Source: Deltaproteobacteria bacterium
Lineage (GTDB): Bacteria > JAGRBM01 > JAHCIT01
Length of the DNA stretch: 64,000 nt
NCBI GenBank assembly: GCA_026129095.1
Contig: JAHCIT010000005.1
Coordinates: forward strand, 124,001-188,000
Reading direction: 5' to 3'
Below, piece after piece: positions 55,592-57,195 of the stretch (positions are counted from its first letter, which is position 1; each line of letters begins with the position of its first letter). Below the pieces are notes generated by a model. That model did not search any database, had not been told where the DNA came from, and worked only from the letters and a program-made list of their open reading frames with translations. The translations under genes and the position numbers were made by a program.

Positions 55592-55923
55592 GCACTGCTC
55601 CTGCCTGCCGGCGGCCCCTGATTTGGAAGGCTGGGCCCGTCCAGCGACTCCCCGACCGTAGCACCCGCGCCGGAGCCGGTCGATAACTCACCCTGGCAGT
55701 GGTCATCCGGAACCAGACCTGCCCGTCGCGGGCCTCTATAAGGACATGCCAGCTGATGGCTGCATCGAGCAAGTCCGTTGCTCCCAGAATTGGCAGGCAG
55801 CCTGAAAACCCGCCATTAAAGCCGGTTTAATGCGGCTTTTCGGCCCCTTGACACCGTAGAGGCATAAACTAACATTCATGCACGGACTGTTCTGGTCCTC
55901 GTTATAAATGAGGAGTATGCCCT
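55592..55923. promoter_or_regulatory. 332-base intergenic region with hairpin and promoter
   Basis: Two features stand out. A hairpin at 55812-55840 (CATTAAA with TTTAATG around GCCGG, extended by GC pairs) is followed by CTTTT on the plus strand and GGGTTTT on the minus strand, so it could terminate or attenuate in either direction. TTGACA at 55848-55853 and TAACAT at 55870-55875, 16 bases apart, form a good promoter for the gene at 55924, whose ATG has AGGAG at 8 bases. The rest, upstream of the MoxR gene, shows no clear motif. Confidence 0.55.
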
Positions 55924-57195
55924 ATGCCCGTCAACACAGCCGCCACCCCACCGGCCGAACCGGCCCGTTCCCAGACCATTCCTTCAGTGGACCGTCGCGT
56001 ACTGCCCATCGATGGCCATGTGCGCAACATCCTGGGACTCTACCTCTCGATGTTCCGCAACTATGACGAGGCGGCACGGGCGATCCAGATATCCAAGGAC
56101 ACCGTGGCCAAGTATTTCGAGGGCAACCCGAACATCGCTCTCTATGTATTCGACCGCATGTTCGCCGTGTTGCAGGAAAAGGGCGGTTCCGAGCGCCTCA
56201 AGGCGGCCATGGATGGCGCCACCTACGAGGAAGTCGTCTCACGCGCCCGCGAGCGCAACGGCCAGCAGATCGACAACGTGATGTACAAGATGACCCCGCG
56301 CCTGAGGGACATCCTGACCCTGTACACCAACTCGTTCCCGAGCCGGGCGCGTGCGGCAGCCAAGATCGGCATCAACCCGCGCACGTTCAAGGCATACGTG
56401 AAGGGCGATATCGCCAGCTTCCCGCGCGGGAGGTTCGAGCAGGTGGTGGCCGTGCTGCGCGAGAAGGGGCACACCGAAAAGGAACTGCTACAGATCGCCG
56501 GCGTCTCCGACTGGTCGGAGCTTGTCGCTCCCCGTGCCCGTGCCGAAACGGCCTCGATCTCCGAGAACGACATCATCCAGGAGGTCCTGACACGCTTCGA
56601 GGCGGGCACGCTGAACACCCGCACGCTCGACAAGAACTTCCAGGCGGCTGCCGCCCGCATCTTCGGGGACTTCGGCAGCGCGATCCGGGCGGCGATGAAG
56701 CAGCTGGAGGAAAAACTGGGTCGCCAGATCGAGAATGCCATCTCCAAGGGGAACTTCATCGACGCCTTCAAGGATATCCGCCGCCTGGAGCAGTTCATCG
56801 GCACCTATGCAATGCGTGAACGCACCGTGAACCGCACTGCGAGCTACGGACGCAAGAAGGAGTGGTCCGACGACGTGAAGACCATGCGGGACCGCAAGAA
56901 CCGCCTGAAGCTGCAGGTGTTCAAGGCCCTCCGCATCTACGACTTCCCCGATGACCGGCCCGACCTGGTGGAAAACATCCGCACGCCCGACATCGAGCAC
57001 GAGGTCAGTGCCTACGATCCCGGCTCCCGCTACGAGGCCGGCGACATGCTCAAGCACCCGGAGTTCGGCGTAGGCCGTGTGCTGAAGGTGGCCGAGCCGC
57101 GCATGGTGCAGGTGACCTTCGGCCCCCGTACGGGCGAGAAGTTCCTTGTCATGAACGCCAACGGTCCCCGTCCCGAAATCCGCACTTTGCAGTAG
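55924..57195 (+). CDS. Unrecognised protein with two HTH-like repeats and Tudor/CarD-like C-terminus
   Basis: A 423-residue soluble protein. Residues 33-88 and 127-183 align with each other: both begin R-(N/D)-I-L, continue with a helix-turn-helix-like AA..I.I...T...Y..G segment, and end VLxEKG. A third helical region (residues 215-270) has NTRTLDKNFQAAAARIFGDF. The C-terminal segment 368-412 (EAGDMLKHPEFGVGRVLKV, then VQVTFGPRTGEKFL) resembles the Tudor/CarD-type fold at the end of UvrD/PcrA. This suggests DNA binding, but I do not recognise a family. A strong promoter precedes it. Confidence 0.7.
   Translation: MPVNTAATPPAEPARSQTIPSVDRRVLPIDGHVRNILGLYLSMFRNYDEAARAIQISKDTVAKYFEGNPNIALYVFDRMFAVLQEKGGSERLKAAMDGATYEEVVSRARERNGQQIDNVMYKMTPRLRDILTLYTNSFPSRARAAAKIGINPRTFKAYVKGDIASFPRGRFEQVVAVLREKGHTEKELLQIAGVSDWSELVAPRARAETASISENDIIQEVLTRFEAGTLNTRTLDKNFQAAAARIFGDFGSAIRAAMKQLEEKLGRQIENAISKGNFIDAFKDIRRLEQFIGTYAMRERTVNRTASYGRKKEWSDDVKTMRDRKNRLKLQVFKALRIYDFPDDRPDLVENIRTPDIEHEVSAYDPGSRYEAGDMLKHPEFGVGRVLKVAEPRMVQVTFGPRTGEKFLVMNANGPRPEIRTLQ

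Follow-up and report, generated by a model that had tools for sequence, protein, structure and literature searches.

A 423-residue protein combining duplicated helix-turn-helix units with a UvrD/PcrA-class Tudor tail, probably an adaptor between DNA and the transcription or repair machinery

The stretch of DNA analysed here (the window; 64,000 nucleotides of contig JAHCIT010000005.1 from a Deltaproteobacteria bacterium) contains a gene for a protein of 423 amino acids, in which two related helix-turn-helix (HTH) units are followed by a basic helical segment and a C-terminal Tudor tail. The features of the locus are given below in window positions, with the basis of each assignment in brackets.

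55848..55875, + strand: predicted sigma-70-like promoter, TTGACA-16-TAACAT (10/12 consensus matches)
55911..55916, + strand: ribosome-binding site GAGGAG, 7 nt 5' of the ATG (direct sequence reading)
55924..57195, + strand: whole gene, 423 aa (exact open reading frame; ATG at 55924, stop ending at 57195)
55999..56223, + strand: HTH unit 1, residues 26-100, recognition-type helix 58-65 (repeat statistics, profile-profile comparison, AlphaFold, Pfam NUMOD1 at E 5.3e-5)
56278..56523, + strand: HTH unit 2, residues 119-200, recognition-type helix 152-160 (repeat statistics, profile-profile comparison, AlphaFold, orthologue alignment)
56551..56943, + strand: basic helical segment, residues 210-340, pI 9.9 (AlphaFold model; common to the G349 protein)
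57007..57159, + strand: UvrD/PcrA-class Tudor tail, residues 362-412 (profile against PDB, shuffle scores, PcrA residue matches)

The search for sigma-70-like promoters found one site against 0.2 expected in shuffles, and it is plausible from its sequence that the TTGACA-16-TAACAT element serves as promoter of the 423-aa gene. An earlier note on this DNA had ascribed a strong promoter to the gene; the candidate agrees with this as far as the presence of a promoter is concerned, but its strength finds no support, and comparison of the orthologues' upstream DNA by eye revealed no clear counterpart of the TTGACA-type element. An inverted repeat, AAAGCCGGTTTAATGCGGCTTTT, lies upstream of the promoter candidate at 55818-55841 and looks terminator-like, though the gene upstream of the repeat is transcribed away from it.

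Both genes flanking the 423-aa reading frame are on the - strand and the gene is therefore probably transcribed alone. The opposite-strand flanks comprise an AAA/MoxR-type gene, a CoxE-like VWA gene and a glycosyl hydrolase family 3 gene, followed by a DksA/TraR-type gene. Different neighbours surround the orthologues in genomes G001 and G256, and operon context was rejected as a clue to the pathway because of the opposite-strand flanks and the lack of any neighbour conserved across the window, G001 and G256. A RuvC gene is located near the G001 orthologue, and neighbourhoods vary between the genomes.

The gene is present as a single copy in its own genome, where the N-terminal profile used alone also recovers no other gene. 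An orthologue with 52% identity was found in G001, which belongs to the same order and is the only other genome of the comparison set closer than domain level. Another phylum contributes a second orthologue with 29% identity (G256; L006 479-1759), one of the two genomes of that phylum being positive. With either the full-length or the N-terminal profile, no orthologue was detected in a sample of about 380 further genomes from across the domain; the survey with the latter returned weak matches at E 0.003-0.01 which are not credible. No relative was found in phage and plasmid records or in scans of genome contigs and viral contigs. Both phyla that have so far yielded the full-length protein are little-sampled, and a wider distribution is possible since genome sampling is sparse.

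No family model of PHROGs, NCBIfam, PADLOC or Pfam covers the whole protein, and the profile libraries gave no strong match to a characterised full-length family, in keeping with its description in the earlier note as unrecognised. A role in anti-phage defence was considered and rejected, nothing credible being returned by PADLOC. Whole-protein Foldseek gave nothing meaningful and is uninformative because the full-length model reaches a pTM of only 0.36.

The N-terminal half is clearly duplicated. The copies which had been proposed at residues 33-88 and 127-183 have the right boundaries, and are marked by the motifs R34-x-I-L...VLQEKG (82-87) and R128-x-I-L...VLREKG (177-182). Local alignment of residues 25-115 with 116-212 scores 80, as compared to a mean of 24.5 and a maximum of 45 in shuffles (n=2000). 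The internal repeat scores 59 in the G001 orthologue (reached by 0/2000 shuffles) and 50 in the G256 orthologue (1/2000 shuffles), which is borderline, while unit comparisons across different proteins score 58-85. Profile-profile comparison relates unit 1 to unit 2 with a probability of 97.6% (E 3.8e-12).

The N-terminal regions of the three proteins align without gaps over 183 columns, and AlphaFold run on this alignment gave a model with mean pLDDT of 85 and pTM of 0.49. Both units adopt the same order of elements, namely strand, helix, helix, helix, strand, helix, helix (in the numbering of the N-terminal model, E3-6 H9-20 H25-31 H36-44 E48-50 H51-64 H67-74 for unit 1 and E98-100 H103-114 H119-125 H130-138 E143-145 H146-158 H163-170 for unit 2). 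The two units are thus alike in the structural model, where dissimilarity would have spoken against the duplication, but their mutual placement is uncertain at this pTM. In unit 2 the stretch NxRTFKAY is invariant in the three proteins; N151, R153, T154, F155, K156 and Y158 are kept across phyla.

NUMOD1 is an HTH-type module. Its Pfam model matches the window protein with 23.8 bits (cut-off 22.8, E 5.3e-5) and the G256 protein with 23.3 bits, both above the cut-off, and the G001 protein with 18.1 bits, below it; HTH_3 and HTH_31 stay below the Pfam cut-off in the window and G001 proteins, near it in G001. In PDB, the leading Foldseek matches are HTH domains that bind DNA, namely Aca10 (probability 0.93, TM on target 0.72, rmsd 2.4) and the XRE regulator 2ofy (probability 0.94, TM 0.60), with CI and SinR also matched; the E values of these matches are above 0.1 and hence non-significant, despite probabilities up to 0.94. 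The viral library has an unnamed protein as top match (E 2.2e-4), with HTH proteins and repressors of the CI/LexA type among the others. Matches to ribosomal protein L1, sigma factors and NarL (profile/PDB; E 0.02-0.5) were set aside as chance or generic HTH likeness.

Each unit looks like a NUMOD1 or lambda-repressor-type HTH, and the HTH-like core noted earlier in both copies is supported by the repeat statistics, the NUMOD1/HTH profiles, the orthologues and the AlphaFold model. In common with NUMOD1 and the lambda-repressor (XRE) HTH the units possess an AAxxIxISxxTxxxYxxG core, and in fold they may resemble XRE, CI and Aca10. They differ in forming a tandem ungapped pair with two extra helices per unit, and in the lack of a nuclease or repressor effector domain in the protein. 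HTH folds can bind protein or RNA as well; from the profile and fold matches, DNA binding by these units is likely. The units are basic in nature, as are all three full proteins (pI 9.3-10.5).

The NUMOD1 scores above cut-off in the window and G256 proteins, together with the matches to phage CI-type repressors and HTH proteins, would suit a domesticated derivative of a mobile element or phage, built from NUMOD1-type modules of homing endonucleases or from a phage repressor. Such an origin seems quite unlikely, since Pfam scans of the window, G001 and G256 proteins detected no nuclease domain (GIY-YIG, HNH or other), phage and plasmid records and viral contigs hold no relative, and 52% identity between families of one order suggests vertical inheritance.

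The pair is followed by a third helical segment, as had been predicted; it is present in the AlphaFold model without similarity to the two HTH units. Helices are modelled at residues 214-227, 237-247, 250-274, 278-302 and 308-340, with the long ones (250-302 and 308-340) at the end of the segment. A third HTH copy was rejected here, the scores of 21 and 27 being within the shuffle range, as was an HNH_repeat/homing-endonuclease repeat (E 0.23, on the consensus only). A protein of yet another phylum, G349, has the middle segment and the tail in common with the window protein and is without the HTH pair.

The C-terminal fold had been likened to the UvrD/PcrA Tudor or to the CarD RNA polymerase-interaction domain, and the first of these comparisons holds up best. 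A profile built from 11 tails (the window protein and relatives) finds UvrD/PcrA-type helicases or fragments, in their C-termini, as its best six matches in PDB (E 5.5e-4 to 0.025). Judged by sequence, the tail belongs to the UvrD/PcrA Tudor class, although PF21196 (PcrA_UvrD_tudor) scores 14.1 bits, below its curated cut-off of 23.9. In shuffle tests the window tail reaches z 12-15 when compared to the tails of zinc-ribbon and DinG-like proteins, and z 4.5-5.8 for those of UvrD. Profile searches recover, through the common tail, UvrD-type helicases, Tudor-tailed DinG-like helicases and small zinc-ribbon proteins from many phyla.

PcrA residues H681, W684, K712 and L714 have been mutated to test RNA polymerase (RNAP) binding in pulldowns (PMC5397179). 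These align with H378, F381, K406 and L408 of the tail. All four positions are kept in G001, with Tyr replacing Phe; the G256 tail has the His and Leu only, its Lys and aromatic contact residues being lost, so that the binding-surface residues are conserved in two of the three proteins. Like the Tudor of UvrD/PcrA (PF21196; PDB 5dma, 7egs, 6yi2), to which it corresponds in sequence class and in these four residues, the tail is C-terminal behind a flexible linker. In contrast to UvrD/PcrA, there is no helicase ahead of the Tudor (Pfam and profile scans gave no match to an SF1 helicase domain), the Pfam score is below cut-off, and the host's own RpoB is without the helicase-interaction motif. 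The genome's own UvrD is a separate gene with its own Tudor, and only these two proteins of the genome carry UvrD-class tails.

The PcrA Tudor grips a TGE hairpin in the SI1 domain of RpoB and in UvrB, and the Glu of this motif is essential for PcrA binding (PMC8318588). The genome's own RpoB is a 1666-aa open frame (1342 in E. coli) with an E. coli-like SI1 domain, in which YIDESTGELI of E. coli aligns with VVNPENGAVI. TGE is thus changed to NGA and the essential Glu to Ala. Whole-genome exact pattern search for the helicase-interaction motif gave seven matches, none of them in-frame in RpoB SI1 or UvrB. This lineage, whose UvrD keeps the domain too, either has altered its docking sequence or uses a different partner. 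This RpoB (L070; G000:C1:111900-117100, - strand) also has a lineage-specific insertion of ~260 aa (residues about 430-700), after the equivalent of E. coli residue 406; the inserted part has no Pfam match.

The idea that the protein bridges DNA and RNAP or a helicase accordingly stands in part. The domain anatomy and the four PcrA residues speak for it, whereas the absence of TGE from RpoB does not, and the bridging itself we infer. RNAP would be only one candidate partner, possible but weakened by the RpoB result even though the tail keeps the four residues. Because the tail resembles the helicase's own docking domain, it is expected to bind the partners of UvrD rather than UvrD itself, and with only two such tails in the genome both proteins could compete for one partner.

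CarD/CdnL and the RNAP-interaction domain of Mfd likewise join a Tudor-like RNAP-contact domain to a DNA-binding part, and contact RNAP at the beta1 site. The protein might by analogy be an ordinary transcription factor, a CarD/CdnL-like one with added DNA sequence specificity, the HTH pair sitting on promoters and the tail on RNAP beta. Among the profile matches of the tail CarD_TRCF_RID ranks first, though weakly (E 0.0051 in G001 and 0.028 in the window protein; 14.9 bits vs a cut-off of 23, at the C-terminus and not the N-terminus), the HTH units are of repressor type, and the gene has a promoter candidate of its own. The search of solved structures, however, returns UvrD/PcrA and not CarD or Mfd. 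CarD has an N-terminal Tudor and no HTH, so that domain order is reversed, the DNA-binding module is another one and the tail is nearer to UvrD; the RpoB SI1 domain, moreover, lacks TGE (this comparison concerns the SI1 hairpin, CarD and Mfd using beta1). We regard such a factor as a tentative possibility.

UvrD-class Tudor tails bind UvrB too, through the same motif (PMC8318588). A DNA-repair accessory is conceivable on this basis, its tail binding UvrB or another UvrD partner and its HTH/helical part recognising DNA or damage structure non-specifically; the related tails on DinG-like and UvrD helicases and the basic nature of the whole protein would fit. No repair gene was found adjoining the gene in the window, the neighbourhood with RuvC in G001 is not conserved, and UvrB shows no match to the strict motif, which leaves this role rather doubtful. 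Transcription factor and repair accessory are both narrower versions of the explanation that we prefer, differing in the partner.

We prefer to regard the protein as a DNA-binding adaptor that is encoded in single copy on the chromosome and carries a UvrD-type docking tail; we assign this reading a probability of about 0.5. Directly supported here are the domain order, the duplication, the Tudor class, the single copy, and conservation of the residues at the binding surface in two of the three proteins. We infer its DNA binding, partner and effect as follows: the duplicated lambda-repressor/NUMOD1-like units would bind DNA, probably at two adjacent half-sites on one duplex face; the long basic helices may serve as a spacer, for dimerisation or for additional DNA binding; and the tail would dock on a beta-hairpin of a partner used by UvrD (RNA polymerase beta, UvrB or similar). 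The protein might then recruit this partner to its DNA, or compete with UvrD for it. Against such an adaptor count NGA in RpoB, the absence of the motif from UvrB, the losses in the G256 tail, the Pfam scores below cut-off and the lack of a neighbour that names a pathway. A bolder version, which we hold to be doubtful, is a lineage-specific adaptor whose duplicated HTH module would carry a docking domain of UvrD type to selected sites on DNA, in rivalry with UvrD for its partner; where RNAP has lost the usual UvrD docking motif, this would be a separate means of coupling the transcription or repair machinery to DNA.

The protein is real and uncharacterised, and is probably an adaptor between DNA and the transcription or repair machinery. 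Its pieces are known individually; what appears to be new is the joining of twin HTH units to a UvrD-type Tudor tail, and the novelty lies in this arrangement of known domains rather than in the kind of system. This Tudor class is familiar chiefly from UvrD/PcrA, where it is the docking domain. Its presence on non-helicases, with twin HTH units here and zinc ribbons elsewhere, suggests a wider and largely unannotated set of proteins using one docking surface, which would make other binders of the UvrD docking site a directly testable question.

The closest sequence relatives of the tail, including a preceding Tyr-x-Pro-like stretch, are uncharacterised zinc-ribbon proteins and Tudor-tailed DinG-like helicases of other phyla (e.g. 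L008, L015, L016), which have an N-terminal zinc ribbon or helicase in place of the twin HTH units. None of the zinc-ribbon proteins scanned reaches a Pfam cut-off or has a credible NCBIfam match. Many phyla contain such small proteins of ~140-210 aa (L008, L009, L011, L013, L015, L018, L028, L031 and others), in which the zinc ribbon is N-terminal and the Tudor tail is of UvrD class, and a C-terminal Tudor tail of the same kind is present in the DinG-like helicase L016 / L035 (G237:C23).
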